From the IMG/VR virus record IMGVR_UViG_3300044624_000938, positions 1 to 64,000 of that record: a DNA stretch of 64,000 nt. The stretch is one strand, 5' to 3'. The DNA is from a virus. A program made the translations under genes and the position numbers. Shown piece by piece: positions 12,447-54,858 of this stretch (the first letter of the stretch is position 1; the number at the start of each line of letters is the position of its first letter). The notes beneath the pieces were generated by a model that did not search any database, was not told the DNA's origin, and saw nothing but the letters and a program-made list of their open reading frames with translations.

Positions 12447-15041
12447 GTGTCTATCGCAGCAACTGTTGTAGATCTGATTCTCGATGCAACCGCAGCAGGC
12501 AAGGCGATGCTGCTTGCGGCAAATGCTTCCGCACAGAAGGCACTGCTGTCTTTGGTGAAGGCGGACGTTGGCCTTGACAACGTAGACAACACCAGCGATG
12601 CCGCCAAGCCCGTCAGCACCGCTCAGCAGACAGCCCTTGATGCGAAGGTCACAGCCAACACCACTATCGTTGGTGCGACTAAGACCAAGATCACCTACGA
12701 CTCCAAAGGTCTGGTGACTGTAGGGGCGGATGCTACAACTGCGGATATCGCTGACTCAGCAAACCGTCGATACGTGACCGATGCACAACAGACTGTGATC
12801 GGTAACACCAGTGGGACAAACTCCGGCGACAACGCGGTCAACACTTTGTACTCTGGCCTTGTCACCAACGCTACCCACACTGGCGATGCCACGGGTGCAA
12901 CCGCGTTGACCTTGGCGACAGTCAACTCCAACGTCGGTTCCTTCGGGTCAGCAACCCAGTCAGCGGCCGTTACCGTCAACGCCAAAGGTTTGGTTACCGC
13001 AGCCAGTGCCACGACGATCACTCCCGCTATCGGATCGGTGACTGGACTTGGAACCGGGGTAGGTGCTGCCCTCGTAACAGCGGTAGGGTCAGCAGGTGCT
13101 CCCGTCGTTAACGGTGGATCCCTCGGCACGCCTGCTTCAGGCACTCTCACCAACTGCACAGGATACCCAACGACCGGGCTCGGGCTGACATCAGGCAACC
13201 TGTCACAGTTCGCAGCCACAACATCGTTGCAGTTGGCAGGGGTGATCAGCGATGAGACGGGCAGTGGCTCCCTCGTGTTTGCCAACACCCCGACGTTGGT
13301 CACTCCTGTGTTGGGTGTGGCCACTGCCACCAGCGTAAACAAAGTTGCCATCACGGCACCAACCACGTCGGCTACGCTCACGATCGCCAACGGTGCGACA
13401 CTCACTGCATCCGCGACAGCGACTGTCAGCGGGACCAACACCGGGGACAATGCGGTTAACGCCCTGTACTCAGGGCTGGTCACCAACGCGACACATACCG
13501 GAGACGCAACAGGTGCGACCGCCCTGACCTTGGCAACAGTAAACGCCAACGTCGGTTCCTTCGGGTCAGCAACACAATCGGTTGCTTTCACGGTGAACGC
13601 CAAAGGGCTGGTGACAGCAGCCAGTGCAACCACGATCACACCCGCTATCGGGTCTGTGACTGGCTTGGGCACAGGGGTTGGTGCTGCTCTCGTAACAGCG
13701 ATAGGGTCCGCAGGATCGCCCGTGCTAAACGGTGGTGCCCTTGGCACGCCAGCAAGTGGGGTTGCGACTAACCTTACCGGCACCGCGTCGGGCTTGACGG
13801 CAGGTACGGTGACGACCAACGCGAACCTGACCGGCGATGTCACGTCTGTTGGTAACGCCACGACCCTGGCTAACTCAGGTGTGACCGCTGGCGTATACTC
13901 GATGGCGAACATAGTGGTAGATGCCAAGGGTCGCATCACTATGGCGGGTAACAGTTCGTTGGGGAACTCCTTGGTCGCCATTCAGAACATCCCGTCGATG
14001 GCTGCGGACGAGAGTATATACTACACCAGCAGTACAGTAGCAGCAGCCTACTCCCTCACTGCAGCCGCTCGTACCGTGCTTGATGATGCGACCGTTGGTG
14101 ACATGGTCAACACGTTGGGTGGGGCCACTAGCACGGGCACTGGCGGACTTGTTCGCCTGAACGCACCAACGCTTCAGGGCGGGATGCTTGTCGAAGCTGG
14201 AGGGAACTTTACTACGAACTACGGAGCCCCGGCACAACTTCGTGTACGGCGAGCCCAAGGTACGCAAGGTGCCCCAGCACAGGCAACGTCCGGCATTCAA
14301 CTCGGGATCATCGGGGCACAGGGCATGAACGATGCTCTGGCCTTTGCCGGGTACACGAGCTACATCAGCTTTAACGCAGCACAGAACATCACGACGACTG
14401 GATGCGGTGGCTACTTCAACTTCTACACCACCCCGATCGGTTCTTTGACTGAAGTCATGCGGACATGGGTCGGAGCGGCAGGCAACTTCGGTATCGGAGT
14501 GTTCGCAGCGGAACCATCGGCCCGACTCCACGTCATCCACACTACAGAGCAGTTACGGCTTGCGTATGACGCTTCGAACTACCTCTCGGCCACGGTGGGC
14601 TCAACGGGTGCGGTCACGTTCGACGCGGTCGGTGCAGGGGCTGCGTTCAATTTCTCGGATTCAGTCACAGTGGCAGGTTCGTTAGTCTCTGCCTCTGGTG
14701 GGGTTGGGTATGCGACGGGAGCAGGTGGCACGGTCACGCAAGCCACATCGAAAACAACCGGAGTCACCTTGAACAAGACCACCGGCACGATTACGATGAA
14801 CGCTGCGGCAATGACGTACAACACCAAAGTCGCGTTTACCTTGACCAATAGTACGATTGCGGCAACTGACTTTGTACTGGTACAACATGAGTCCGGAGGT
14901 ACAGTGGGATACTACTTCTGCACGGCAACTCCGGCAGCAGGGTCAGCAACGATCAACGTCTACCTTGAAGGATTCACAGCAGGTACACTATCAGAGGCGA
15001 TAGTACTAAGGTTCGTGGTTATCAAAAGTGTCAATGCTTAA
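12447..15041 (+). CDS. Tail fibre-like repeat protein
   Basis: The 864-residue protein starts at GTG 12447 after GAGGGAGCACGTC. Its N-terminal half is an Ala/Thr/Gly/Val-rich beta repeat array containing VGLDNVDNTSD, LGTPASGTLTN and GLVTAASATTI motifs common in tail fibre and appendage proteins. One block of about 110 residues occurs twice. The C-terminal part (from about residue 590) differs and contains the segment SARLHVIH, which recalls intramolecular-chaperone or fibre-tip regions. It most likely forms a trimeric fibre used for host recognition. The next gene follows 23 bases later. Confidence 0.75.
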   Translation: MSIAATVVDLILDATAAGKAMLLAANASAQKALLSLVKADVGLDNVDNTSDAAKPVSTAQQTALDAKVTANTTIVGATKTKITYDSKGLVTVGADATTADIADSANRRYVTDAQQTVIGNTSGTNSGDNAVNTLYSGLVTNATHTGDATGATALTLATVNSNVGSFGSATQSAAVTVNAKGLVTAASATTITPAIGSVTGLGTGVGAALVTAVGSAGAPVVNGGSLGTPASGTLTNCTGYPTTGLGLTSGNLSQFAATTSLQLAGVISDETGSGSLVFANTPTLVTPVLGVATATSVNKVAITAPTTSATLTIANGATLTASATATVSGTNTGDNAVNALYSGLVTNATHTGDATGATALTLATVNANVGSFGSATQSVAFTVNAKGLVTAASATTITPAIGSVTGLGTGVGAALVTAIGSAGSPVLNGGALGTPASGVATNLTGTASGLTAGTVTTNANLTGDVTSVGNATTLANSGVTAGVYSMANIVVDAKGRITMAGNSSLGNSLVAIQNIPSMAADESIYYTSSTVAAAYSLTAAARTVLDDATVGDMVNTLGGATSTGTGGLVRLNAPTLQGGMLVEAGGNFTTNYGAPAQLRVRRAQGTQGAPAQATSGIQLGIIGAQGMNDALAFAGYTSYISFNAAQNITTTGCGGYFNFYTTPIGSLTEVMRTWVGAAGNFGIGVFAAEPSARLHVIHTTEQLRLAYDASNYLSATVGSTGAVTFDAVGAGAAFNFSDSVTVAGSLVSASGGVGYATGAGGTVTQATSKTTGVTLNKTTGTITMNAAAMTYNTKVAFTLTNSTIAATDFVLVQHESGGTVGYYFCTATPAAGSATINVYLEGFTAGTLSEAIVLRFVVIKSVNA
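12810..13140 (+). repeat. First copy of 331-bp repeat in fibre gene
   Basis: This stretch and 13428-13758 encode nearly identical blocks (each begins SGTN-GDNAVN and ends GTPASG). The offset of 618 bases is constant, so no gaps separate the copies. Many differences are silent, which suggests an old duplication held under protein-level selection. Confidence 0.75.
13428..13758 (+). repeat. Second copy of 331-bp repeat in fibre gene
   Basis: It matches 12810-13140 at a constant offset of 618 bases. Recombination between the copies would remove 206 residues in frame and shorten the fibre. Confidence 0.75.
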
Positions 15042-23047: not shown

Positions 23048-23078
23048 TGTTACCCCCAGTCTAGTGAATAAACACAAT

Positions 23079-23102
23079 GCTGATCCTCCGCAGAGAACCA
23101 GC
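23079..23102 (-). repeat. Hairpin cassette copy J
   Basis: On the minus strand a 10-bp stem (with G-U pairs) carries the loop UGCG. Upstream is GAGTGATCGTAACG and downstream ATTGTGTTTATTCAC. This matches the other copies listed between 23 and 34 kb and lies in the leader of 22880-23047. Confidence 0.7.
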
Positions 23103-23113
23103 GTTACGATCAC

Positions 23114-23440
23114 TCAGGTGTCCTGCCAATGTTTGAACCCCAGCTCGTCCAACTTGGTAGCGATCTCCAGTCCTGCCTGTACACCAATCCCCCGGATGAA
23201 GGACTCTGTAAAATGCCGGAACCCGATATCCACCAAGTCCTCGCAGGTAAGTGGCCACGTCATGTTTGCAAAATCACGTAGGCCAAAGTTTTCGACAGCG
23301 TACCGTACTCGGATGCGAACCCGTCCTGACACTTGGTTCCAAGGAAAAGGAGTACCATCTTTGCTGCAGTCTTGGCTAGCCACGAGCTTTTCCAAGGCCA
23401 CCGCGACCCGGGTAAGGACTTCGACTATCGGGTCTGTCAT
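23114..23440 (-). CDS. Hypothetical protein, 108 aa
   Basis: The ATG at 23440 overlaps the preceding gene stop as ATGA. The N-terminus is helical (DPIVEVLTRVAVALEKLVAS), with a central basic beta stretch (RVRIRVRYAVENFGL). There is no recognisable family. It ends 12 bases before the hairpin of cassette J. Confidence 0.6.
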   Translation of the reverse strand: MTDPIVEVLTRVAVALEKLVASQDCSKDGTPFPWNQVSGRVRIRVRYAVENFGLRDFANMTWPLTCEDLVDIGFRHFTESFIRGIGVQAGLEIATKLDELGFKHWQDT

Positions 23441-26146: not shown

Positions 26147-26169
26147 GTATCACCTCCAAAATGGTTTGA

Positions 26170-26237
26170 GAGAACACGATCGGGGGCCACCGCAGTGGCC
26201 CCCTGTCACAGTCTCACACCGTCACCAACTGTACTTA
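26170..26237 (-). repeat. Hairpin cassette copy E
   Basis: Read on the minus strand, AAGTACAGTTGGTGACGGTG follows the upstream stop, then a 9-bp perfect hairpin (26182-26203) with loop UGCG, then GATCGTGTTCTCTCA. It lies between the genes at 26235-26666 and 25730-26146. Confidence 0.75.
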
Positions 26238-28213: not shown

Positions 28214-28240
28214 ACTCCCTCCTCAGTAAAACCTACGAAC

Positions 28241-28262
28241 GAGGACCACCGCAGTGGCCCTC
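28241..28262 (-). repeat. Hairpin cassette copy K
   Basis: The minus RNA forms a 9-bp stem with one G-U pair and loop UGCG, then CGTTCGTAGG. The upstream box seen in other copies is poorly conserved here. It lies between genes 28274-28678 and 28061-28213. Confidence 0.6.
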
Positions 28263-28273
28263 TATCTTAGGAT

Positions 28274-29115: not shown

Positions 29116-29186
29116 AGAGAACACGAGTGACGAGCCCCGCAGGACTCGTCGGTCACACTCTCTGACACCGGGGCCAACTGTACTTA
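29116..29186 (-). repeat. Hairpin cassette copy F
   Basis: Minus strand: TAAGTACAGTTGGCCCCGG begins with the stop codon of the upstream gene. It is followed by a 9-bp hairpin (29129-29150, one G-U) with loop UGCG and then CTCGTGTTCTCT. Confidence 0.75.
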
Positions 29187-29330
29187 ATCTTTCACTTCCC
29201 AGACGTACTCACCGTCTTCAGATGAACTTGGGAACCGGACCAGTCTGACGTGGCTGTACTTGTCGTACAGTCTTGACTGGAACATCTCGGCCATGACAGA
29301 CGTCAGGAAGTTCTTAGAAATTCGCTTCAT
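29184..29330 (-). CDS. Small basic protein, 48 aa
   Basis: This short frame starts at the ATG read from 29330 behind AAGGAGTTGTG. It is basic at the start (KRISKNFL) with a helical first half and a beta-like second half (HVRLVRFPSSSEDGEYVWEV). Its TAA is the first codon of cassette F. Confidence 0.6.
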   Translation of the reverse strand: MKRISKNFLTSVMAEMFQSRLYDKYSHVRLVRFPSSSEDGEYVWEVKD

Positions 29331-30149: not shown

Positions 30150-30181
30150 ATCTACCTCCATAGGTTTGAATGAACACAATA

Positions 30182-30203
30182 CCGGGCCACCGCAATGGCC
30201 CGG
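30182..30203 (-). repeat. Hairpin cassette copy I
   Basis: Minus RNA: GAGTGATCGTAACG, a 9-bp hairpin with loop UGCG, then TATTGTGTTCATTCA. The upstream box overlaps the 3' end of the gene at 30212. Confidence 0.7.
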
Positions 30204-30211
30204 CGTTACGA

Positions 30212-30874
30212 TCACTCTGGACTGCCGTTCTCGTCAAACTCGTATCCGTTGGCGATGATGTTCTCGGCAACAACTTCATCGCTGGTCAACCAGTCATAAT
30301 CTTTCTCAAGTCGAGTGTATAACCAATCGGCCAACCACCGCAGGTTGTTCTCCACGACCGTTTCACGACCACGGTCCTCCATCTGTTCCCATTCGCCCTC
30401 CGAATTCTCGAAGTCGTTGAACTCGAACCGCATGGTGTGGGAGTGTGAGTATCGACCAGTGGTCGAGATGTCCACCCGGCACGTCGCGTTGTACGGCTCA
30501 ACAAAGTCTACATACAGACATGCAGCGATGTTGTGCAGGTCTTCGTCCAACGGAGCGTACTCTTTGATCTTCTCAACCATGTCGAGTTTGCCACGGAAGC
30601 AACCCTCGAAGCTGGCCCCATCACCTTGTGATCCGAACCCGCTGAAGGCTATGCGAGGTTTATACCTCACACCACCTCCCATGAGTCTGACCGGATCGTC
30701 TGCCAGCTCAACCCCGAGGATCTTGCAGACCTCTACGAAGTCATCGTAGACACTGTCCCACCACTCGTAGTCAAGCCCACCATCCATGCCGAGATACCAC
30801 TCACGGGCTTTCTGTTTTGCACTGTCCGACAGTTCTTCGTACTTGAAGACCTCTGTCACTTTGTTACGCGGCAT
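30212..30874 (-). CDS. Phage protein resembling 'antitoxin of toxin-antitoxin stability system' family
   Basis: The 220-residue protein opens with EVFKYEELSDSAKQKAREWY and has DYEWWDSVYDDFVEV, IAFSGFGSQGDGASFEG and a long acidic C-terminal helical part. This order is typical of a widespread phage and plasmid family that databases label as an antitoxin of a toxin-antitoxin stability system. I know of no firm evidence for that label, and no toxin gene is visible beside it. The family recognition is from memory of the motif layout. Confidence 0.6.
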   Translation of the reverse strand: MPRNKVTEVFKYEELSDSAKQKAREWYLGMDGGLDYEWWDSVYDDFVEVCKILGVELADDPVRLMGGGVRYKPRIAFSGFGSQGDGASFEGCFRGKLDMVEKIKEYAPLDEDLHNIAACLYVDFVEPYNATCRVDISTTGRYSHSHTMRFEFNDFENSEGEWEQMEDRGRETVVENNLRWLADWLYTRLEKDYDWLTSDEVVAENIIANGYEFDENGSPE

Positions 30875-31363: not shown

Positions 31364-31380
31364 TGTGAACCTCCTTTCTG

Positions 31381-31450
31381 AGAGAACACGATCGACGAGC
31401 CTCGCAAGGCTCGTCTGTCACACACTCTCACCGGGGTCAACTGTACTTAC
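31381..31450 (-). repeat. Hairpin cassette copy G
   Basis: Minus strand: TAAGTACAGTTGACCCCGG starts at the stop codon of the upstream gene. It is followed by a perfect 9-bp hairpin (31394-31415) with loop UGCG and GATCGTGTTCTCTCA. Confidence 0.75.
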
Positions 31451-31980
31451 TCTTCTACGTCTTCAACCTTGTAGATTGGGTATGGTGCCTCACCGTCTTC
31501 AAACCAGTCTGGACCCAGACAATACGTCTTAGGCCCGGTTGGACAAGGATTGCCAAGATGACCGGCTCCGGGAGCACACGGACTGCAGAACTGAGCGTGA
31601 GTGTAGAAGGGACTCTTCAACACCCACACATCACCATCCTGAGCCAGCTTGAGGAAGTACCCGTCGCCTTCAAACTCCCACGGGCCACCCTCCTGACAGT
31701 CGTGCCACTCCACGTTGCCGATGATCTCAGCAGCCAGCTCGTCAGGATCACCAACCTGACCGTACGGGTCAATGGCCGCTGCAATGGCTCGTGCCAGCTC
31801 GTCTTTGGCCTGGTCACGCATGTTCTCAAAGCCGACATCAGTACCTTGTGTAATGAGGTCATCAAGTGCTTCGGGCATCACGTCGTGCTGACTGATGACC
31901 CCATAGCGTATTCCGGTCACATGATCTCGGTTCGTCTGGCCAAGACCGTAGTCAATGCCAGTGTAGCTGGTCTCTTCCAA
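31447..31980 (-). CDS. Acidic hypothetical protein, TTG start, 177 aa
   Basis: I place the start at TTG 31980, behind GGAGGAGATTACA; a longer frame reads into cassette H. The protein has a helical middle (DQAKDELARAIAAAIDP) and a Cys-rich C-terminal region (FCSPCAPGAGH, NPCPTG, YCLG). It probably binds metal. The TAA stop begins cassette G. Confidence 0.55.
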   Translation of the reverse strand: MEETSYTGIDYGLGQTNRDHVTGIRYGVISQHDVMPEALDDLITQGTDVGFENMRDQAKDELARAIAAAIDPYGQVGDPDELAAEIIGNVEWHDCQEGGPWEFEGDGYFLKLAQDGDVWVLKSPFYTHAQFCSPCAPGAGHLGNPCPTGPKTYCLGPDWFEDGEAPYPIYKVEDVEE

Positions 31981-32002
31981 TGTAATCTCCTCCAAAGGTT
32001 CG

Positions 32003-32070
32003 AAAGTACACGATTGGGAACCACCGCAATGGCTCCCTGTCACACACTCTCAACCGGGGTCAACTGTGTT
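32003..32070 (-). repeat. Hairpin cassette copy H
   Basis: Minus strand: ACACAGTTGACCCCGGTTGAG, then a 9-bp hairpin (32016-32037, with G-U pairs) with loop UGCG, then AATCGTGTACTTTCG. It lies between genes 32072-32503 and 31447-31980. Confidence 0.7.
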
Positions 32071-32071
32071 T

Positions 32072-33666: not shown

Positions 33667-33697
33667 CACAATCAATCACCGCTCCCAACTGTACTTA
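33667..33697 (-). promoter_or_regulatory. Element A: head of leftward operon
   Basis: Minus strand reads AAGTACAGTTGGGAGCGGTG followed by ATTGATTGTG. No minus-strand gene lies upstream, so this copy of the conserved box cannot be a terminator for one. It is therefore the best evidence that the box acts as a promoter or promoter-proximal signal. Confidence 0.5.
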
Positions 33698-33768
33698 CCC
33701 TTTCCGCTTTCTTAGTACTACGGTCAGGGGGAGAATTCATATCCTTACAATGTGTAATTTTCAATGGA

Positions 33769-35296: not shown

Positions 35297-35619
35297 TTCG
35301 CATTGGTAGACAGGGATTGCAAGCATTACCAGGCGGACCAGGTAAGCAAACAAATGGACCTGGACAAACATCGGGTAGGCCGCATACGTCGGCTGTGCTG
35401 TGCTGTGCTTTTTCTCTTATATTACACGCCATTTCCAGTATATTGGAGGTGGCTGGACGGTAACCCGCTACGTCAGTCCCGTTAAAACCTAGGATTGCCA
35501 GTGTTTTCCGCTCTTTCCTGCCATCCGGGGCAATGCCAGGGAAGTTAAGCCCAAATTCAGACCGGGGCATCCTGGTCCTTACAGGGTCCTCTAGGCTATT
35601 TGGTAACCCAGCCACCTTT

Positions 35620-35666
35620 TTCACGTTTTTCCAAATCCTTACAAGTGACCCTTGGTAAAAGTTTTG
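35620..35666 (+). repeat. 47-bp direct repeat, copy 1
   Basis: TTCACGTTTTTCCAAATCC and the bases after it recur at 35701-35747 with one difference (AAAAG versus AGAAG). The period is 81 bases. Confidence 0.8.
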
Positions 35667-35678
35667 CGTACCGGTACC
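35654..35678 (+). repeat. 25-bp motif, copy 1
   Basis: GGTAAAAGTTTTGCG and the following TACCGGTACC are repeated exactly at 35767-35791. A partial copy (GTTTTGCATACCGG) is at 35854-35867, and an inverted relative lies near 43570. Confidence 0.8.
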
Positions 35679-35700
35679 CCCAGCACAGCCGTATATCCGC

Positions 35701-35747
35701 TTCACGTTTTTCCAAATCCTTACAAGTGACCCTTGGTAGAAGTTTTG
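35701..35747 (+). repeat. 47-bp direct repeat, copy 2
   Basis: Second copy of the repeat at 35620-35666. After it the sequence diverges (TCCAACC instead of CGTACCGG). Confidence 0.8.
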
Positions 35748-35766
35748 TCCAACCTACGTCTCACCC

Positions 35767-35791
35767 GGTAAAAGTTTTGCGTACCGGTACC
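35767..35791 (+). repeat. 25-bp motif, copy 2
   Basis: Exact repeat of 35654-35678, ending in the palindrome GGTACC. Confidence 0.8.
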
Positions 35792-35950
35792 TCCAGACTG
35801 GCTGCCTGCCGCCACGTCCTGTGACTGCCTGTTGAAGGTGAGACCTTGTTGGGGTTTTGCATACCGGCTCCACACGTCTGGCCGGGCCTTGACAGGCCCG
35901 ACCGAGCTGGCGATGATGGCAGCGGCTTATCCCCTCAACGGAGACCAGAT

Positions 35951-39872: not shown

Positions 39873-40406
39873 TCAGTCCACCAACCTTTCTGCCCTCGAC
39901 AGAAACACTGGAACACATTGGCTGGCCATGATAGGCCGTACCGCCAGAACTTTAATACCCCGTTGATCAGCGGAGTCTGAGATACGAACCTTTATCGTAT
40001 TGCAGATGCTCCACACACCTCGGGTTTTGATCTCGTCAGCCGTAAGCTGGCTGATGATCTTTACTAACCCGGAGCCGCCGATGAGTTCAAGATGGTTCTG
40101 CCCACTGAACTGCATTGTCTCGTACTTGAGAATGTCACTGATCTCATACTCGATACCGATCCTCCACTGCCACGTCTTATCGTCTGAAGACGTGACAGCG
40201 ATGATTGCCGTCTCGCATATCTGGCTGACAACAGTGTGGACCCTCCAGTACTGAATGAGCGGCCAGATGATGTACAGCCCCGGACCCTTGGCCCGGCCGT
40301 ATCTACCGAACCAGTAACAGGCCGCTTCTTCGGTTGGTGCCACGATCGTCGGTCGGGGCATCAACTCCCAGAGGAACTGCACTATTTGGGTCAGTAGATC
40401 AAGCAC
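39873..40406 (-). CDS. SPFH/Band 7 (stomatin-like) membrane protein
   Basis: Translation starts at GTG 40406 behind GGAGAGAAAAA. A hydrophobic N-terminal segment (LLTQIVQFLWELM) is followed by an SPFH-like domain: GPGLYIIWPLIQYWRVHTV, ETAIIAVTSSDDKTW and IGIEYEISDI. Stomatin/prohibitin proteins assemble into rings on membranes and modulate proteases or channels. In phage they are uncommon; it could protect the replicating phage from membrane stress or proteolysis. At 177 residues it lacks the long C-terminal coiled coil. Confidence 0.65.
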   Translation of the reverse strand: MLDLLTQIVQFLWELMPRPTIVAPTEEAACYWFGRYGRAKGPGLYIIWPLIQYWRVHTVVSQICETAIIAVTSSDDKTWQWRIGIEYEISDILKYETMQFSGQNHLELIGGSGLVKIISQLTADEIKTRGVWSICNTIKVRISDSADQRGIKVLAVRPIMASQCVPVFLSRAERLVD

Positions 40407-46472: not shown

Positions 46473-46657
46473 CCAAGGTCACGTTCTGTTTGATCGGTAG
46501 AGCCGGGTGCAACATCCACTTCGTGTGGGACGATGTTGGACCCGGCCTTTACGTTCAATGGTCTGACAGTGAAGAACTGACCGGCCGGATCGTGCGGGAA
46601 GGCGATGGTACTTTCCCGGACAAGTACTTTGCACATTTGACGGAGGTGTTAGCGTGA
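46469..46657 (+). CDS. Small hypothetical protein, 62 aa
   Basis: The ATG at 46469 overlaps the upstream TGA; an earlier codon in frame lacks this coupling. The product is beta-rich (TFCLIGRAGCNIHFVWDD) and short. The next gene starts as GTGA on its stop. Confidence 0.55.
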   Translation: MTKVTFCLIGRAGCNIHFVWDDVGPGLYVQWSDSEELTGRIVREGDGTFPDKYFAHLTEVLA

Positions 46658-47226
46658 ACGTGCTTGTTGCGTGTGAGTACAGCGGACGGGTGCGAGATGC
46701 CTTCCGCAAACTTGGCCATGATGCTTGGTCCTGCGATATCATCGACTCGGAGACACCGAGCGAGTACCACATCAAGGCCGATGTTCTCAGCGTTCTCAAC
46801 TGCGGCTGGGATCTGATCATCGCTCACCCACCTTGTACGTACCTCTGCAACAGCGGAGTCCGTTGGTTGTACACAGAAGAGGGGCGTCTCAAGAAGATGA
46901 CCGCTGCTGCCGGTTTCTTCAAAAGATTTCTCGAAGTTGACTGCCCGAGAGTCTGTATTGAGAATCCGATCATGCACAAGCACGCCAAGGTTATCATCGG
47001 TGTAGACTACACCCAGATCGTTCAACCGTGGCAGTATGGCCACGGGGAGACAAAGGCTACTTGCCTCTGGTTAAAGGGTTTGCCAAAGCTGGAACCGACA
47101 AACATCGTTGAAGGGCGTGAGGCCCGGATACATATGATGTCACCGGGGAAGGACCGGGGTAAGAAGCGGTCTGAGACGTATCAAGGTATTGCCGACGCGA
47201 TGGCGGCACAGTGGGGCAGTTTATGA
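46654..47226 (+). CDS. Short C5-cytosine methylase-like protein
   Basis: It starts at GTG 46654 behind GGAGGTGTTAGC. The 190 residues show the S-adenosylmethionine-dependent methylase fold: VLVACEYSGRVRDAF (motif I), IIAHPPCTYLCNSG with the catalytic Pro-Cys (58-61) and VCIENPIMHKH with ENP (103-105). At under 200 residues it has little room for a target-recognition domain. It may methylate phage DNA or have lost sequence specificity. It overlaps the recombinase gene as ATGA. Confidence 0.7.
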   Translation: MNVLVACEYSGRVRDAFRKLGHDAWSCDIIDSETPSEYHIKADVLSVLNCGWDLIIAHPPCTYLCNSGVRWLYTEEGRLKKMTAAAGFFKRFLEVDCPRVCIENPIMHKHAKVIIGVDYTQIVQPWQYGHGETKATCLWLKGLPKLEPTNIVEGREARIHMMSPGKDRGKKRSETYQGIADAMAAQWGSL

Positions 47227-48761
47227 GCACATGGGTCTACGCACGAGTATCAACCCTCGACCAGTACGTCAACGGGTACTCCATCGACCAACAGGTTCGG
47301 GTGTGCCTTGAGTACGCCAAGAACAACGACTACCTGCTTGGTCTTGAGACCAACTGCGACCTGCCCGGTGTCTTCATTGACGGCGGTAAGTCAGCCTTCA
47401 AGAAGAAGCTATGCCAACGGCCGGGTGGGCTCATGCTGCTCGGCAACGCTAAGCCCGGCGACGTCATCATCGCGTTGGCCACCCACCGTCTGTTCCGCCA
47501 GTTCAACGACATGGTTGCTGTGATGGACCAGTGGGTACAGAACGGCGTGACGGTGAAGTTCGTCGACTACCCGACGCTCAACACCGACACAGCCAATGGC
47601 AAGGCGATGCTTTACATGATGGCGGTCATGGCTCAGCTAAGATCCGAGTTGATCTCAGCCCGAGTCAAAGAGTCACGAGTCATCGCAAGGACGAAGGCCC
47701 CCGAGAGGCCAAAGCCCAAACCCGTCGAGACCATCTGCTCATCAAAAGATGTCGGTGCTATCCTACAGCAGATGCAGCGTGACCGTGAAGCGGACAAGTA
47801 CAAGTTCACGGGAAGGGTCCACGCATACGTCCGTGTATCCACGAACGACCAGACTGTTGAGCATCAAGTCAACCTGCTCACAAAGATGTTGCCCGACGAT
47901 CTGCGTGGAGCTGAGATTGTCTGGTACAAGGACGAAGGGGTGTCAGCCTTCAAGACCAAGTTCGAGAAGAGAAAGGCTGGGGGCGAGATGCTCAAGGCAC
48001 TGAAGCCCGGCGACATGGTTGTGGCGTGGCGACCAGACCGTCTCTTCAGGTCAATGGTCGACGCTAACCGAGTGGTCGATTCGATCCACAAGACCGGGGC
48101 GTCCCTGATGACCGTTGAGGGCGATCTGCGGACAGACAAACCACAGGGCAAGATGCTCATGCAGATGCTGGCCATGTTTGCCGAGATCGAGTCACAGGAC
48201 ATCTCACGCCTGACAAGACTCGGTAACTTCGGGGCCATTGGTATCAACCCGAAGATGCAGGCGATGCGTGTACCGAAGCTCCTGCGTGAGATGAAGAAAC
48301 ACTTCAACCAGAAGCACTACCACTTCGAGAACATTTTCACAGCCGACGAACGGTTCTACATGCACATCGAGCTTCACCTGACCGCGAAGAACTATCGTAG
48401 TCGGAAGGAGGCTTGCCGGGTCATCAGTAACAAGTGGCTGGCGAAGAAAGGTCTACCACCGGTACAGGGTGAGTACGGCGAACCTTGTAAGAACTACGCA
48501 AGAAGAATCCACAACATGCAGAAGGTGGAGTTCACCGAACGACGTCATCGGTTGTGTGAGCGGTTGAAGAAGCACCCGGACGAAGTGAGGTATCCGTTGA
48601 GTACAGAGACGGCTTGTCAGCTCGTGAGGAACCAGACAGAGTTCCTTCGTGTTGCGAAGATGTTTCCGGGGCGGCTGAAGGATAAGCAGTCACTGACGAT
48701 GCTGGCGTCATCGTGTACGTCACCAGAGGCTGCAGTAGATTTCATGGGGAGACTGGGATGA
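47223..48761 (+). CDS. Serine recombinase with two tandem catalytic domains
   Basis: The ATG at 47223 overlaps the methylase stop. The 512-residue protein has two resolvase/invertase N-terminal domains. Domain 1 (1-155) has YARVSTLDQ with Arg8 and Ser10, and ATHRLFR with Arg89 and Arg92; a His replaces the usual Asp before the Arg. Domain 2 (198-335) has YVRVSTNDQ with Arg204 and Ser206, and PDRLFRS. Both keep the nucleophilic Ser. The C-terminal 170 residues are helical and basic but show no clear zinc or recombinase DNA-binding domain. A single-chain dimer or one regulatory domain is possible. Confidence 0.8.
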   Translation: MSTWVYARVSTLDQYVNGYSIDQQVRVCLEYAKNNDYLLGLETNCDLPGVFIDGGKSAFKKKLCQRPGGLMLLGNAKPGDVIIALATHRLFRQFNDMVAVMDQWVQNGVTVKFVDYPTLNTDTANGKAMLYMMAVMAQLRSELISARVKESRVIARTKAPERPKPKPVETICSSKDVGAILQQMQRDREADKYKFTGRVHAYVRVSTNDQTVEHQVNLLTKMLPDDLRGAEIVWYKDEGVSAFKTKFEKRKAGGEMLKALKPGDMVVAWRPDRLFRSMVDANRVVDSIHKTGASLMTVEGDLRTDKPQGKMLMQMLAMFAEIESQDISRLTRLGNFGAIGINPKMQAMRVPKLLREMKKHFNQKHYHFENIFTADERFYMHIELHLTAKNYRSRKEACRVISNKWLAKKGLPPVQGEYGEPCKNYARRIHNMQKVEFTERRHRLCERLKKHPDEVRYPLSTETACQLVRNQTEFLRVAKMFPGRLKDKQSLTMLASSCTSPEAAVDFMGRLG

Positions 48762-49039
48762 CGCTGAAAGAAAAGATTCTTGAACTAAGCGGCGAGTATC
48801 TGTTGGTCCACAAGTCACACATCAGAACCATGCAGGTGTATGACATCGCTAAGAGCGGGTATCTGACCCGGGCTGACATCATGGCGATGGGCAGCGATAT
48901 ATGTCCTGACGTCGAGATCGTGTACTCCAAGCTCAGCATGGAGGACCTTCTGAAGCAGCACGAGGATTGGACTGTAGACGAACTGATCAGGTATCTTGAG
49001 GCACCAAAGCCTGAGCCCACACAATCAGATCCGTCCTGA
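48758..49039 (+). CDS. Hypothetical protein, 93 aa
   Basis: The ATG at 48758 overlaps the recombinase stop as ATGA. It is a helical, mostly acidic protein with a WTVDELIRYLEAPKPEP tail. Its last 53 bases overlap the antisense excisionase-like gene. It may work with the recombinase. Confidence 0.6.
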   Translation: MTLKEKILELSGEYLLVHKSHIRTMQVYDIAKSGYLTRADIMAMGSDICPDVEIVYSKLSMEDLLKQHEDWTVDELIRYLEAPKPEPTQSDPS

Positions 49040-49229
49040 ATATCTGAAGACGACCACCCAACCAGAATGACCCGAGGTAGCAACGCACCTCGGGTCTTTT
49101 TTTGTTCTGTACCCCTTTGAGGCACCAGTTGCGAACGGTATCCGTTGTCACCTCAATGCCACGTTGGCTGAGCCAAGCGACAACCTCTTTCGGGGATAGG
49201 TGCGGCGGTTCATTCTCTACATTCAACAC
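48987..49229 (-). CDS. Excisionase-like helix-turn-helix protein
   Basis: The 80-residue protein reads LSPKEVVAWLSQRGIEVTTD, then TVRNWCLKGV, then a wing GGRLQIFRTDLIVWAQAL, the classic MerR/excisionase (HTH_17) order. A recombinase gene lies next to it, so it could be a recombination directionality factor. It is read opposite to its neighbours, overlaps the previous gene by 53 bases, and contains an intrinsic terminator for the plus operon within its coding sequence. Confidence 0.65.
   Translation of the reverse strand: MLNVENEPPHLSPKEVVAWLSQRGIEVTTDTVRNWCLKGVQNKKRPEVRCYLGSFWLGGRLQIFRTDLIVWAQALVPQDT
49069..49103 (+). terminator. Strong intrinsic terminator
   Basis: GACCCGAGGT pairs with ACCTCGGGTC (10 bp) around AGCAACGC and is followed by seven Ts. 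It is the clearest rho-independent terminator in the window and closes the primase-recombinase operon 30 bases after its last stop. It lies inside the antisense gene at 48987-49229. Confidence 0.9.
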
Positions 49230-49296
49230 CTGTAACTCCGTCTGGGGGTAAAACCGAAGAAACCGAAAAAGCCGAATCTAGGTAGTTTGTAAACAT

Positions 49297-49315
49297 CTTG
49301 CTATTGCAATGCAAG
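49297..49315. promoter_or_regulatory. Palindrome upstream of morphogenesis operon
   Basis: CTTGC ... GCAAG flank the palindrome ATTGCAAT with one extra T. It is preceded by ACCGAAGAAACCGAA-type short repeats (49253-49275) and lies 55 bases before the scaffold start. A late promoter without a consensus -10 may sit here (TTGCTA at 49299, AAAGAT 17 bases later); the palindrome could bind its regulator. Confidence 0.35.
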
Positions 49316-49369
49316 TCTAAAAAGATTCTCATGCTTGGGAATGTTTCACCCCAGACATAAGGATCAGGC

Positions 49370-50416
49370 ATGACTACCCCAGCGTTACCGTCGTTTCAGA
49401 TGCTGCAGCAACAGGCTGCCACACCACAACCGAACATACCGAGTGCTCCGTCTGGGGGAGCGAACAACCCTCCCGTCCCGGTTCCACAACCGGGCGGGAT
49501 GGGTTTACCAACTCCCCAGCCACAAGCTCCTCAGTTCATACCACCTGTGGCTCCCGCACGGGACCCGTTTCTGATCCAACTTGAACAGTCGAACCGATTG
49601 CCACCTGGCCGGTTCAACACGGTGCAGGAAGCGTTCGACGCGATCTACACTCTGGCTGAACAACAGGAGTCAGAACTTGACCGATTCAAAGCCCAGCCCG
49701 TTGTAGCCCCGGCACCACCGGTAACACCTGCAGCTCCGGCTGAAGACCTCAACAAGATGGCAATGGCTTTCCAGCAGAACGGCTGGATGGCTCTTGAGAA
49801 CGGGCAGTGGGTCGCCAAGCAACCTGCTGCTGGACAACTGGCCCAGCAACTCAACCACCAAATCCTCGAAGCACAGGCTCGTCAGGCTGAACTGTCTGAC
49901 CCTTCTGCGTTCATCGCTAAGTACGGCAAGACGGCAATCGAGCAATACCTGACTCCACTCCAGAAAGAGATGGAAGCCCTGAGGCAGCAGAACCTGCAGC
50001 TCCAGATGGATATTGCGAAGAGTACTCCGAAACCACACGAAGCGTGGGTCAAGCAGAACGAGGCTGTGTTATGGACGACCGATCAGAGTGGGACACGTAC
50101 ACCATCCGCAGTGGGAAAAGTGTACGCCGATGCTTGGGACATGGCTGCGAGCTACAACCTGAGTGCCGAGGATGTTCACAAGTTCGCCATGACGGCGGCC
50201 ACCCCATACATAACAACTGTGACGCAGCAGGCTCCTCAGCCACAGCCGCCACAACCTTGGATGCAACAGGTTCTTCAGAACCCGCCAGCACAGAACCCGG
50301 CGTTTAATGCTCCGGGAACTTTCCTTAACAACAGCGTTTCACCCCAACAACGAGACGTAACCTTGGATAACGATGGGCTTCCATCGTTCGCCAGATTACA
50401 AGCCCTTCCGCAATAA
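49370..50416 (+). CDS. Head scaffold-like protein
   Basis: The ATG at 49370 follows ATAAGGATCAGGC. The 348 residues contain Pro/Gln/Ala-rich disordered ends and a central helical, coiled-coil region (EAQARQAELSDPSAF, LQKEMEALRQQNLQLQMD). This composition and the position directly before the major capsid gene are typical of phage scaffolds, which shape the procapsid and are then removed. No protease motif is visible. Confidence 0.7.
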   Translation: MTTPALPSFQMLQQQAATPQPNIPSAPSGGANNPPVPVPQPGGMGLPTPQPQAPQFIPPVAPARDPFLIQLEQSNRLPPGRFNTVQEAFDAIYTLAEQQESELDRFKAQPVVAPAPPVTPAAPAEDLNKMAMAFQQNGWMALENGQWVAKQPAAGQLAQQLNHQILEAQARQAELSDPSAFIAKYGKTAIEQYLTPLQKEMEALRQQNLQLQMDIAKSTPKPHEAWVKQNEAVLWTTDQSGTRTPSAVGKVYADAWDMAASYNLSAEDVHKFAMTAATPYITTVTQQAPQPQPPQPWMQQVLQNPPAQNPAFNAPGTFLNNSVSPQQRDVTLDNDGLPSFARLQALPQ

Positions 50417-50429
50417 CACGGAGTAGCAC

Positions 50430-51572
50430 ATGCCTGGTCATACACTTAATGCAGCAACCGTCAACGGACATATCAATCAAGTCCGTGACTTGGCTCCGAA
50501 GTACTGGAAGGGCGTTTCTGACTTGACAGTCCGAAACTACCTGACGTTCTTCAATCTGATGAAGTGGGGGAGCATCACATACAATGCTCGATCACACACT
50601 CAGATGTGGAATGCCCGAGTCCGACAGCCACAGGTTGTTCCGGCGATCGACGGTCAACCAATCGAGTTCGTCAACACCGACACCGATATTCAGTTCTACA
50701 TCGGCATGAAGGGGTACCGAGGTACCGACTACTTGCCGGAACTGGAGTACCTGCAGGCTCAGGGAGCACCTGAGCAGATCAGTGACCGGTACACCCGCAA
50801 GTCCAAAGAACTTGCTCAGGCGATGATGGAACGACTCAGCCATTCTTATTACAAGGATGGTAACCTGGCTGCCAACGTGTATGACTTCGTGGGCATGAAA
50901 ACCCCACTGTCTTACGCGGCCGGTACGGTGACTTCGGCCGACAAGGTTGCCCGACCAAACGGCAGCTACGCTGGCCAGTCTTGTGCTCTTGGCAACCTTG
51001 GTGGAACTTGGTCTGGCGACTTGGCTGTAAGCCCGAACGCTAACTTGGACAAGGACTGGCCTTTCGGTCAGGGTTCAAGCGAGTATGACGGCACGAGCCC
51101 ACTGATCGTCAACTACGCTTCAACCGCCTGGGGAACTGCTCAGACCGACTGGGCCTCAAACGCAATCGCTGCGACGAGCTACGCTCAGACGGCGATGCTG
51201 CACAGAGGTGGTCAGTCAATGGTCGGAGCCATGCCGAACGTGGTCATGGCATCTGAAATGTTCACGGACTTCAAAAACAGTTTCCGTGAGAACAACCGAC
51301 AGATGATGCCGTTCCGCGACGGTGACCTCGGCTACCCGGGCGAGACCCTGATGGTCGACGGAATGGTCTACAGCATGGACTACGCTGTCCCAACCGGCGA
51401 GGCTTACATGTACTTGCCGCAGTACGTGGAAGCGTTCTTCGTCCACAACCAGATTTACGGTGCTCAGGGTCCTGACTACTCAGTCAAGGACGTTGGATAC
51501 CTGTACTACGTAAGTTGCTACGGCAACTACAAGTTCCTGCCGAAGTACATGGCTCGCTTCATCGCAGTGTGA
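50430..51572 (+). CDS. Major capsid protein
   Basis: The ATG at 50430 follows ACGGAGTAGCAC. The 380-residue protein lies between a scaffold and a decoration-like protein, has a helical N-terminus (NGHINQVRDLAPKYWKGV) and a beta-rich body with VPAIDGQPIEF and PGETLMVDGMVYSMD, consistent with a capsid fold. It is the only gene here with its own strong hairpin directly after the stop, as expected for a highly expressed product. The family assignment rests on position and size. Confidence 0.75.
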   Translation: MPGHTLNAATVNGHINQVRDLAPKYWKGVSDLTVRNYLTFFNLMKWGSITYNARSHTQMWNARVRQPQVVPAIDGQPIEFVNTDTDIQFYIGMKGYRGTDYLPELEYLQAQGAPEQISDRYTRKSKELAQAMMERLSHSYYKDGNLAANVYDFVGMKTPLSYAAGTVTSADKVARPNGSYAGQSCALGNLGGTWSGDLAVSPNANLDKDWPFGQGSSEYDGTSPLIVNYASTAWGTAQTDWASNAIAATSYAQTAMLHRGGQSMVGAMPNVVMASEMFTDFKNSFRENNRQMMPFRDGDLGYPGETLMVDGMVYSMDYAVPTGEAYMYLPQYVEAFFVHNQIYGAQGPDYSVKDVGYLYYVSCYGNYKFLPKYMARFIAV

Positions 51573-51589
51573 TAGCTGGCTGAATTGAT

Positions 51590-51613
51590 AGCCCGGCCTT
51601 AACCGGCCGGGCT
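51590..51613 (+). terminator. Terminator hairpin after capsid gene
   Basis: AGCCCGGCC pairs with GGCCGGGCT (9 bp) around TTAACC, followed by CTTTCT. It resembles the hairpin at 12069 and probably acts as a partial terminator or stabiliser of the capsid transcript. Confidence 0.65.
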
Positions 51614-51655
51614 CTTTCTCCCTGATACCCTTCTCCACATTTCGGAGTGATTGAT

Positions 51656-52186
51656 ATGACCTGTAACATCCAGCAACAACTCGGTGAACTTGATATCGTC
51701 AAGGACGACAACGCCCTCGGTACGGTCAAGCATTTCCGCGACCTGAACATGACGTTCCCAAATTTCTGGACGCTCAACTCGCAGACGTCCGTGAAAGCCA
51801 TCTTCGTTCGAAACGATTCGGGCGGAACCTTGGGGAGTGGCCTTGGTGTCACTTACAAAAGTGGCGGGATTGGGAAGACCATTGGTTCTCTTAGCGGTGC
51901 CAACCTTCGCTGTGACGGCGTGGTTGACCCCTTCCTCGGTGTCGGTGTAACCGTCCCGGACCAGTCATACTTCTGGCTGATCATTGAAGGACCAATCGAC
52001 GTTGAGATCGGCGTGGGAGATATCACTGCTAACGCTGTCGTGCAGACCATCGCGTCCGGCAAGTTCGCTACAGGTACTGCCGGTACCAACCCACTCGGTC
52101 ACAGCGGGATCTGTCAGACGGCTGCGGTGTCCGGTGCTCGTGCCCGAGTTTACTTTCAGAATCCATTCTCCGTCGTCAAAGGTTGA
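51656..52186 (+). CDS. Capsid decoration-like protein
   Basis: The ATG at 51656 lies nine bases after CGGAG; an earlier in-frame codon lacks that spacing. The 176 residues are beta-rich with Gly/Thr-rich turns (GGTLGSGLGVTYKSGGIG, VPDQSYFWLIIEGP). Following the capsid gene, it most likely binds the capsid surface. No family was recognised. Confidence 0.6.
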   Translation: MTCNIQQQLGELDIVKDDNALGTVKHFRDLNMTFPNFWTLNSQTSVKAIFVRNDSGGTLGSGLGVTYKSGGIGKTIGSLSGANLRCDGVVDPFLGVGVTVPDQSYFWLIIEGPIDVEIGVGDITANAVVQTIASGKFATGTAGTNPLGHSGICQTAAVSGARARVYFQNPFSVVKG

Positions 52187-52192
52187 TAACAC

Positions 52193-52270
52193 ACCCGCCG
52201 CACCTCTCGCACGTCAACGTCAACGTACGTCCGTGCTGACGTGCATCTGGGCGGGTTCTCTCTTTCTCTT
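52193..52270 (+). terminator. Compound hairpin with pyrimidine tail
   Basis: ACCCGCC/GGCGGGT forms an outer stem and GCACGTCA/TGACGTGC an inner one, followed by TCTCTCTTTCTCTT. It follows the decoration gene by seven bases and should slow or end transcription. Confidence 0.6.
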
Positions 52271-52305
52271 CGCCCTCACCGGCTATGCAAGGTGGTGATC
52301 CTACT

Positions 52306-52413
52306 ATGCTACCGCTCAGTCCTCCACCCGCAATTCATGGTACGTCTACAGCTCAGCCTGTGAGTGCAGGGAACCCTATCCAGGTTCCCCTGACACCTGC
52401 GACTCAGAAGTGA
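52306..52413 (+). CDS. Small Pro-rich protein, 35 aa
   Basis: A 36-codon frame from the ATG at 52306 sits between two hairpins. It is proline- and serine-rich (LPLSPPPAIHG, VPLTPATQK), with only a moderate GGTGGTGATC ribosome site. It may be a small virion peptide or not expressed. Confidence 0.4.
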   Translation: MLPLSPPPAIHGTSTAQPVSAGNPIQVPLTPATQK

Positions 52414-52439
52414 CATGACCACTAACCAAGACCAAGCAG

Positions 52440-52470
52440 AGGGGCAGGCAGGTTCGACCTGTCTGCCCCT
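52440..52470 (+). terminator. 14-bp terminator upstream of terminase operon
   Basis: AGGGGCAGGCAGGT pairs with ACCTGTCTGCCCCT (one G-U) around TCG, followed by TTCTGTTTTC. It lies just before the ATG at 52490, which argues against translation starting further upstream. Confidence 0.7.
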
Positions 52471-52489
52471 TTCTGTTTTCCCAGGCCGC

Positions 52490-53092
52490 ATGATATGCAA
52501 AGGCATGTGCGGTATGCCGGTCAAGCAACTCTCCCCCAGAGGTTTCTGTATGTCCTGCGAAGATGAGGTAAAGACGGCAAGCACCATTGCTGTGCTGGCC
52601 ACGAGTACCCCGGCCAAACCCGGGCGAGGATTCAGGGAGGCATTAGCTGAGGTACGCCGCTCAGGCAGGCCACTCACGCTCGACATGGCTGAGGCCGCAG
52701 AAGAAGCTCTCGGCGGTGCGGGCAACCTCGCCAAAATGATCGTAGATGACCTCAAGCGGGTGAAGGGCGAACACCTTGACCCGGAGCTGCAGGTCTTCCA
52801 CGAGACCGACTGGAAGGTAGCCAAAGGTTTGACCGAGATGCTGGTCAACATCTTTCAGGCACGAGATAAGCTGGCCGGTGATACAGGGGACCCGCTGGCC
52901 GACGTCAGCGAAGCAGACCTCATGGCTATCGCAAGCCAAGCTGCGTTGCTTCAGATCGAGACCGACGCTGAGTTCAGGATAAAGATCCTCGACGCGATTA
53001 TCGAAGCAGACCCAGACGCTGTTGTGGCTGCGGCTGGTCGAGCCCTCGATAAGATTGAAGCCGGTCCGAGAGTGGAGGTCATCGACGTATGA
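52490..53092 (+). CDS. Cys-rich hypothetical protein before terminase
   Basis: I choose the ATG at 52490 because a terminator sits in the only upstream part of the frame. The 200-residue protein begins with cysteine pairs (ICKGMCGMP, FCMSCEDE) suggesting a zinc finger, followed by an acidic helical body (RGFREALAEVRRSGRP, AEEALGGAGNLAKMIVDD). Its place directly before the terminase large subunit (ATGA overlap) fits a terminase small subunit or packaging partner, but the motif for that family is not evident. Confidence 0.5.
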   Translation: MICKGMCGMPVKQLSPRGFCMSCEDEVKTASTIAVLATSTPAKPGRGFREALAEVRRSGRPLTLDMAEAAEEALGGAGNLAKMIVDDLKRVKGEHLDPELQVFHETDWKVAKGLTEMLVNIFQARDKLAGDTGDPLADVSEADLMAIASQAALLQIETDAEFRIKILDAIIEADPDAVVAAAGRALDKIEAGPRVEVIDV

Positions 53093-54858
53093 GCGACCTC
53101 ATCTCACGAATCAAAGCATCATTGAAAGACAGGCAGGACCTTCAACAAGGCGTTGCTGCAGCCGCCAAGCTGGTACGTCAGAAGGTCAACGCCCTTGAGA
53201 TGTTCCGGCCAACGAAGTACCAGGAGGAAGTTGTTCTTAGCGGGGCATCTGAGATCCTGGTCCAGGGGGCACCACGATCTGGTAAGTCTACTATCGTGGC
53301 GGCAATGGCAGCATCGTACCTCACCGGTATGCCTATCACGTTCTCAGACGGGTCTAAGCACTACGTGCGGGAGCCCGGCTGGATGGACCGACCGGTCAAC
53401 ATGTGGCTCATCGGTCTGCAGTTGAACCACATCGGACAGACGATCTACCGACTGCTTTGCAAACCGGGAGCGTTTGACATCGTCCGAGATAAGACAACAG
53501 GTATGTGGAGGTGTTGGCAGCCGGGCGTTGTACCGGGGGACGATGTCATTCCTGTCAACGAAAGGAAACCATCGCCACCTTTCATCCCGCCGTCCATGAT
53601 CGAGAAAGAGTCATGGGCCAACAAGGCCGCATTCCAGTTCGAGTCTTTGACGATGAAGGACGGATCGACCGTCTATGCGTTTGCGTCCTCCGGTGCCGTG
53701 AAGCGTGGCGACCCGGTCAACATGATATGGATCGACGAAGAAATCGAGAACAGCGGTCACTACGCGGAGTGGCAGTCACGACTGTCTGACCGTAAGGGTC
53801 GTATCTTCTGGACGTCATGGCCGGACGCTTCAACAGCGGCACTGCTTGACCTGTATCGACGATGCGAGAATCAACGTGAAGAGTTCAACGCCGGTATCCG
53901 AAAGAAGCTCGACGTAACTAACTTCAAGTTCACGTCGTTCAAGAACCCGTTCATCGACGAGGACGAAAAGCGTAAGCGTATCGAGGGTTGGTCTGAAGAT
54001 CAGATCACCGCCCGAGCGATGGGTGACTTCGTAGTCGGTAATATCCTTGCGTACCCGGAGTTCAACAAGCGTATCCACACAGTCGACTATGGCGACGGGC
54101 ACCCACTGAACGACAAGGTCACGGAGGCTATGCGGCGGCTTAACTGGAACGCTCCAGCCGACTGGTGCGTCGACATAATCCTCGACCCGGGTACCGCTCG
54201 GCCAGCACTGTTGTGGGTGGCGATACCTCCTGAGTCTTTCTGGGACGACGGGGAGCCGTACCACATAGTATTCAGGGAGATGGCGGTCCCACGCATACAC
54301 GCTGGGGAAATGGCTAGAAGGGCCAAAGCAGCCGACCCTTTCCGATGGTACGCCAGATTTATCGGGGACGCCAAGGCGGGCGACCAGACGCCGATGGGGC
54401 ACGCCCACACGGTATTCCAGAATTACGAGATGGAGTTCCGGAAGGCGGGCTTGCGTTGTCAACTGACGGGTGATATGTTTCTCAGGGGAGAGACTGTCTG
54501 GGTCAACCGTTCATTGAAGTTGCGTACACTCATGCAGGTACGAACGTCATGCGGCCGACCCCGGTTTCGGGTTGTAACCCACATGTGCCCCGTGCTTGTC
54601 AAACAGTTAGAGACAACGGTGAAAGCCGTTACGAAGGAGGATGTGCAGGACAAGTTAGCTCAGGGTCAGATTCACGACGTACTCGATACGGCTGAATACT
54701 ACGCCGGGTTCAACCCGAAGTTCCTCGCACCGCCCCCGAACCAGATCCCAAAGGACCCCGGTCTCCTCATGTGGGAGGCAGACCAGAAGTTTGTTCAGGA
54801 CCGTTTCCGCCGAGATAAAGACGACCGCAAGGACAAGATTGTTCTCGGTGCCCCATAG
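53089..54858 (+). CDS. Terminase large subunit
   Basis: The 589-residue protein overlaps the previous stop as ATGA. It has the packaging ATPase motifs: Walker A VQGAPRSGKSTI (58-69), Walker B NMIWIDEEIE (near residue 215) and a following coupling motif FWTSWPD. The nuclease domain shows DIILDPGTARPA and RFIGDAKAGDQ, giving the acidic metal-binding residues. It drives DNA into proheads through ATP hydrolysis and cuts concatemers. Confidence 0.88.
   Translation: MSDLISRIKASLKDRQDLQQGVAAAAKLVRQKVNALEMFRPTKYQEEVVLSGASEILVQGAPRSGKSTIVAAMAASYLTGMPITFSDGSKHYVREPGWMDRPVNMWLIGLQLNHIGQTIYRLLCKPGAFDIVRDKTTGMWRCWQPGVVPGDDVIPVNERKPSPPFIPPSMIEKESWANKAAFQFESLTMKDGSTVYAFASSGAVKRGDPVNMIWIDEEIENSGHYAEWQSRLSDRKGRIFWTSWPDASTAALLDLYRRCENQREEFNAGIRKKLDVTNFKFTSFKNPFIDEDEKRKRIEGWSEDQITARAMGDFVVGNILAYPEFNKRIHTVDYGDGHPLNDKVTEAMRRLNWNAPADWCVDIILDPGTARPALLWVAIPPESFWDDGEPYHIVFREMAVPRIHAGEMARRAKAADPFRWYARFIGDAKAGDQTPMGHAHTVFQNYEMEFRKAGLRCQLTGDMFLRGETVWVNRSLKLRTLMQVRTSCGRPRFRVVTHMCPVLVKQLETTVKAVTKEDVQDKLAQGQIHDVLDTAEYYAGFNPKFLAPPPNQIPKDPGLLMWEADQKFVQDRFRRDKDDRKDKIVLGAP

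Follow-up and report, generated by a model that had tools for sequence, protein, structure and literature searches.

Serine recombinases normally place two subunits at each site, and four subunits cut both sites before rotation takes place. To our knowledge, each chain of a known serine recombinase holds a single catalytic domain, and in all characterised members the four identical catalytic domains come from four chains. In the large serine integrases (phiC31, Bxb1, TP901-1 and A118 type; PHROG 95), the N-terminal catalytic domain is followed by the RD and a zinc ribbon. The small serine recombinases (Gin, Fin, Tn3/gamma-delta; PHROG 125) act as dimers or tetramers of separate chains; invertases and small resolvases are about 180-200 aa long and consist of a single catalytic domain followed by a short helix-turn-helix (HTH) at the C-terminus. 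IS607-type serine transposases also carry the catalytic domain in a variant architecture, in which a DNA-binding domain is found at the N-terminus.

The enzyme considered here is encoded in a window of 64,000 nucleotides (the whole stretch of DNA analysed) from the IMG/VR virus record IMGVR_UViG_3300044624_000938. Its catalytic fold and residues are shared with both the large and the small enzymes. It is similar in total length to the large serine integrases and is likely the only integrase of its phage; however, a second catalytic domain lies where those enzymes have the RD and zinc ribbon. In contrast to the invertases and small resolvases, its single chain of 512 aa holds two catalytic domains and ends in an unrelated C-terminal region of 172 aa. 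Unlike the IS607 enzymes, it has no domain upstream of a catalytic domain that starts at about residue 4.

Domain organization, active sites and predicted fold

The recombinase open reading frame (ORF) runs on the plus strand from an ATG at 47223 to a stop at 48761. The Pfam Resolvase family (PF00239) matched its 512-aa product in two stretches, with E 1.1e-54 for the entire protein, and the two domains can be aligned with one another (34% identity across 140 aa, E 4e-18). The original prediction that one chain contains two complete catalytic domains was thus borne out. Catalytic domain 1 (D1; aa 1-155, 47223..47687, plus strand) was placed by its Pfam match (about aa 4-155), a residue table and an AlphaFold2 model. 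It has a resolvase fold with the nucleophile Ser10, a helix E at about 124-154 and a GYS-type extra segment after Gln14, as found in the large serine integrases. A linker of 41 aa follows (aa 156-196, 47688..47810, plus strand), which is fast evolving and is predicted to be mostly disordered with one short helix. Catalytic domain 2 (D2; aa 197-340, 47811..48242, plus strand), placed by Pfam and the residue table, contains the nucleophile Ser206, Asp272-Arg273-Arg276, Glu323 and a helix E at about 307-337. The C-terminal region (aa 341-512, 48243..48758, plus strand) is all-helical in the model and presumed to be DNA-binding, and its core is conserved across all lineages of the recombinase family. 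The nucleophile motifs (YARVS at 6-10, YVRVS at 202-206) and the Arg-x-x-Arg motif (HRLFR at 88-92 in D1, DRLFR at 272-276 in D2) were found as predicted.

For the residue table, D1 and D2 were aligned with 9 single-domain enzymes (Gin, Fin and other phage or plasmid proteins), 5 of which are of integrase type. Tyr6, Arg8, Ser10, Gln14, Gln19, Asp36, Arg45, Arg68 and Arg71 (resolvase numbering) are kept in both domains in all lineages. Based on the Pfam cut-off, the presence of Ser with Arg8, Arg45, Arg68 and Arg71, and their fold matches, both domains belong to the PF00239 superfamily. Asp67 is replaced in D1 only, by His (His88) in the window and in the related record L033 and by Thr in L027. 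The His before Arg89 had been singled out in advance, and it is specific to D1, as D2 and each of the 9 single-domain enzymes have Asp at this position. The helix-E residue Glu118 is likewise replaced in D1 only, by Arg or Lys; D2 and almost every single-domain enzyme in the comparison keep it. Conversely, Arg125 is lost in D2 (Leu, Met or Ala) and present in D1 and in 8 of the 9 single-domain enzymes. These domain-specific substitutions at Asp67, Glu118 and Arg125 are stable across three lineages. In resolvase, docking before re-ligation has been proposed to involve a charged patch that includes R121 and R125 (PMC11607074). The complementary changes in D1 and D2 may mark an asymmetric pair. 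It had been suggested that the fused domains form a covalent dimer or that one of them is specialised; the lineage-stable loss of different residues in D1 and D2 supports a division of labour between the domains, while the covalent dimer is something we infer.

AlphaFold2 gave an unusable model from near-identical sequences (pLDDT 43.8) and a usable one from five diverse sequences (mean pLDDT 59.5, pTM 0.35). In the latter, the catalytic domains mostly have pLDDT 70-90 (D1 over aa 21-120), and each is followed by a long helix E. Values fall below 50 over aa 141-191 (the linker), and the C-terminal region is modelled as helices, at low-to-medium confidence. The monomer prediction therefore shows the resolvase fold in both halves with moderate confidence, and it does not indicate how D1 and D2 pack. 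Foldseek and profile searches of the PDB matched gamma-delta and Tn3 resolvase, Gin, TP901-1, Sin and Bxb1.

At the level of profiles, the C-terminal region lacks a standard recombinase DNA-binding domain, as had been predicted: Pfam, PHROGs and hhalign gave no credible match, and no HTH family scored above threshold. Resolvase was the only Pfam family above cut-off in the 512-aa protein, and PF07508 (RD) was not detected. When the region was compared with six large serine integrases, the hhalign probability was 0.3%; this comparison gives no support to kinship with their RD, which was rejected. A zinc ribbon was sought as well, and the translation contains no CxxC and matches no zinc-ribbon family. 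No match to the region was found in a set of 50,697 phage genomes. Sphingomonad recombinases have extended C-termini, and kinship with these was considered, since a tblastn alignment against plasmids continued into the region, but on direct comparison only an NPKM stretch is alike. A PDB match to falcilysin (E 5e-4) was judged to have arisen by chance from a shallow profile.

Relatives, selection and origin of the tandem

Further IMG/VR records carry relatives of the enzyme. Five are 92-100% identical to the window recombinase; DNA pattern searches with the motif pair and with a family motif retrieved L033 and L034 (69% identity) as well as L022 and L027 (37-38% identity, near full length, E 1.7e-99). 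The search for homologues and their domain architecture returned the same two-domain layout throughout: both PF00239 domains lie in one uninterrupted frame in the window and in 8 of 8 related records, each copy above the curated Pfam cut-off. In L003, a contig edge cuts the recombinase inside D1. Such agreement is well outside what chance or one single assembly would give. Neither a frameshift, nor an assembly duplication, nor many homologues already described were found in the collections searched. The tandem-catalytic-domain architecture is real, conserved and uncommon, and belongs to a family of uncultivated phages.

Among close variants, D1 has a dN/dS (Nei-Gojobori) of 0.017-0.032 and D2 one of 0.028-0.039; values are higher in the linker (0.10-0.13) and in the C-terminal region (0.07-0.11). 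Between L027 and the window, identity is 16% in the linker, 46% in D1 and 49% in D2, and the linker is also the lowest in more distant pairs. Since dN/dS is low in both catalytic domains and the linker is the least conserved part, D1 and D2 are both kept by selection. As a separate observation, dS between the window gene (47223-48758) and L002 is patchy (0.31 in D1, 0.95 in D2, 0.11 in the C-terminal region), which appears to be a sign of intragenic recombination among phage variants.

Searches beyond the family returned no second example. Among the best 40 matches in each of the lists from 50,697 phage genomes and 72,556 plasmids, none covers 80% of the protein; the two-piece matches listed span only about 420-600 bases and are therefore one domain aligned twice. 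Within IMG/VR, spacing-specific patterns (gaps of 501-561 nt and 440-500 nt, covering some codons and motifs) revealed no tandem serine recombinase outside the family. Viral predicted-structure matches of 300-340 aa exist, which may or may not be tandem proteins. The open literature yielded no paper on serine recombinases with tandem or double catalytic domains, which is weak evidence of absence. Within the phage and plasmid collections, the searches are consistent with the contrast, drawn in the original prediction, to enzymes that have a single catalytic domain in each chain. Two scans of bacterial genome contigs gave no relative of the recombinase, and no attP/attB pair, provirus or host was found in them.

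Across the lineages of the window and L004, of L033 and of L027, D1 forms one clade and D2 another (support 100/97 and 100/96). As each domain is monophyletic, the tandem predates the split of these lineages. The tree joins D1 with D2 weakly (87/79, with long branches flagged), and a grouping of D1 with integrases gave a p-AU of 0.09 and was not rejected. Among the phage matches listed, D1 is closest to serine integrases of Gram-positive phages and D2 to DNA invertases such as Fin and Gin. Moreover, the integrase-type segment after Gln14 is present in D1 alone and absent from D2. D1 and D2 may have arisen by internal duplication or by fusion of an integrase-type with an invertase-type domain, two histories that these sequence comparisons both allow.

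Proposed mechanism and competing readings

The preferred reading, to which we give slightly less than an even chance, is that of a single-chain pseudo-dimer that most likely acts as the integrase of the phage, with a small HTH-like gene as candidate directionality factor. D1 and D2 of one chain would pair via their helices E, giving in cis the dimer that is normally made from two subunits, and the variable, flexible linker of 41 aa would let D1 fold back onto D2. One chain would then serve each site, and two chains would supply the four catalytic domains for synapsis and subunit rotation, while the C-terminal helical region would hold the DNA. One candidate DNA-binding region for two catalytic domains is awkward for the simple model of one chain per site. 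D1 would be the specialised partner, with Asp67 and Glu118 replaced and Arg125 kept, and D2 would be the other half, with the reverse pattern. Because the domains differ at these three positions, asymmetry is probable both at the interface and in the strand cleavages. A more specific proposal, about which we are more doubtful, is an obligate intramolecular heterodimer in which each synapse contains 2 chains, the strands are cut by chemically different domains, and the C-terminal region represents a new helical type of DNA-binding region. In a natural enzyme that brings its own pair of catalytic domains, subunit rotation, half-site asymmetry and the division of labour between domains could be tested directly with single-domain mutants. 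Such an enzyme would also offer a basis for developing simpler DNA integration tools with an orientation bias.

Within the phage, the enzyme would most likely serve to integrate the phage DNA and to excise it, because no other recombinase was recognised in the genome and an HTH-like gene adjoins the recombinase gene on the opposite strand in three lineages, as might be expected of a directionality factor. No second serine recombinase was found, nor was a tyrosine integrase in the two largest records searched. In these two records, there was also neither an HTH_3/CI repressor above cut-off nor ParA, and lysogeny is for this reason unproven.

The main rival to the pseudo-dimer holds that D2 carries out the chemistry and that D1 is a regulatory or architectural module, which has kept the fold and most active-site residues. 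Accessory-site-bound resolvase subunits regulate catalysis in Tn3 and Sin, and a regulatory D1 would be their analogue fused in cis. The loss from D1 of Asp67 and Glu118, two residues that D2 shares with almost all of the single-domain enzymes in the comparison, points in this direction. However, D1 has kept Ser10, Arg8, Arg45, Arg68 and Arg71 in all lineages, and constraint on D1 is not below that on D2, whereas nothing would keep a domain with only a regulatory role from losing its nucleophile. We consider this rival unlikely.

The next rival is that the enzyme is no integrase and acts as a DNA invertase or resolvase within the phage genome, in tail-fibre switching or in multimer resolution of a plasmid-like prophage. 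It would fit the resemblance of D2 to invertases among the phage matches listed, the lack of a recognised repressor and the failure to find an integrated copy in bacterial genome contigs. On the other hand, the window genome is colinear with the related genome G004 (67,861 bases) except for circular permutation and strand, with no inverted segment. No credible inverted repeats flank a gene segment in the window, and no invertible segment with inverted crossover sites was seen there. The recombinase gene is also not adjacent to tail genes, and ParA was not found in the two largest records searched. We consider this role somewhat less likely still. Finally, a stop lost between two neighbouring recombinase genes would give such an ORF, but the chance that two adjacent genes were joined by frameshift, readthrough or assembly is negligible, and such an artefact was ruled out by the uninterrupted frame in contigs from 8 IMG/VR samples, by 4 further variants that are 37-96% identical, and by strong purifying selection on the gene.

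Genome neighbourhood and other observations

The virus record, of which the window covers most, has 67,127 bases and is probably closed, since its first and last 127 bases are identical. The genes around the recombinase are ordered as methyltransferase-like gene, recombinase, small ORF, hairpin, opposite-strand ORF, a 140-base gap, scaffold-like gene, capsid-like gene, terminase and portal; the scaffold-like and capsid-like genes were named by position and by eye from their sequence, without a family match. The upstream gene (46654..47226, plus strand) belongs to the PHROG 'DNA methyltransferase' family phrog_757 and lies in the same apparent operon; its stop overlaps the recombinase ATG (ATGA), and it is found upstream in L033 as well. 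Downstream, a small ORF of about 93 aa (48758..49039, plus strand), whose ATG overlaps the recombinase stop, is largely missing in L004. A hairpin followed by a T run (GACCCGAGGT...ACCTCGGGTCTTTTTTT; 49066..49110, plus strand) is an inverted repeat conserved in L004 and is likely the terminator of the recombinase operon.

On the opposite strand, an ORF of 80 aa (48987..49229, minus strand) occupies the same place in L004, L033 and L027. It looks HTH- or excisionase-like by eye, is under selection (dN/dS about 0.21) and had no significant family match in profile searches; by its position, it is a candidate recombination directionality factor or regulator. Between this ORF and the capsid-scaffold-like gene, an alignment of three lineages revealed a conserved non-coding stretch of 140 bases (TTTGTA...TATTGCAATRCAAG; 49230..49369), a candidate attP or promoter/operator. 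The order of recombinase, opposite-strand ORF and scaffold-like gene is kept in three lineages, including L033 and L027.

The scaffold-like, capsid-like and neighbouring genes (49370-54858) have no PHROG match, and the terminase has no tblastn match in the 50,697 phage genomes; the phage lineage is therefore far from cultured ones. Elsewhere in the window, a phage-encoded SPFH/Band 7 domain protein was found on the minus strand at 39873-40406 (Pfam E 3.5e-6). Repeated elements occur at 26167-26237, 28235-28266, 29116-29198, 30167-30220, 31379-31461, 32001-32071, 33667-33709 and 23065-23118. Their layout is AGAGAACACGA, a G+C-rich hairpin (variable stem, constant CCGCA) and then TGTCACAC...CAACTGTACTTA, and some are conserved in G004; they are perhaps terminator-plus-promoter units of the small-gene region. 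At 35608-35800, two 47-nt copies (98% identical, 81 nt apart) are accompanied by related 30-nt copies 113 nt apart, which are possible iterons or a replication origin. Lastly, an 864-aa ORF (12447-15041) contains a 300-nt repeat (12809-13108 and 13427-13726; 80% identical, 618 nt apart) that is probably a duplicated domain.
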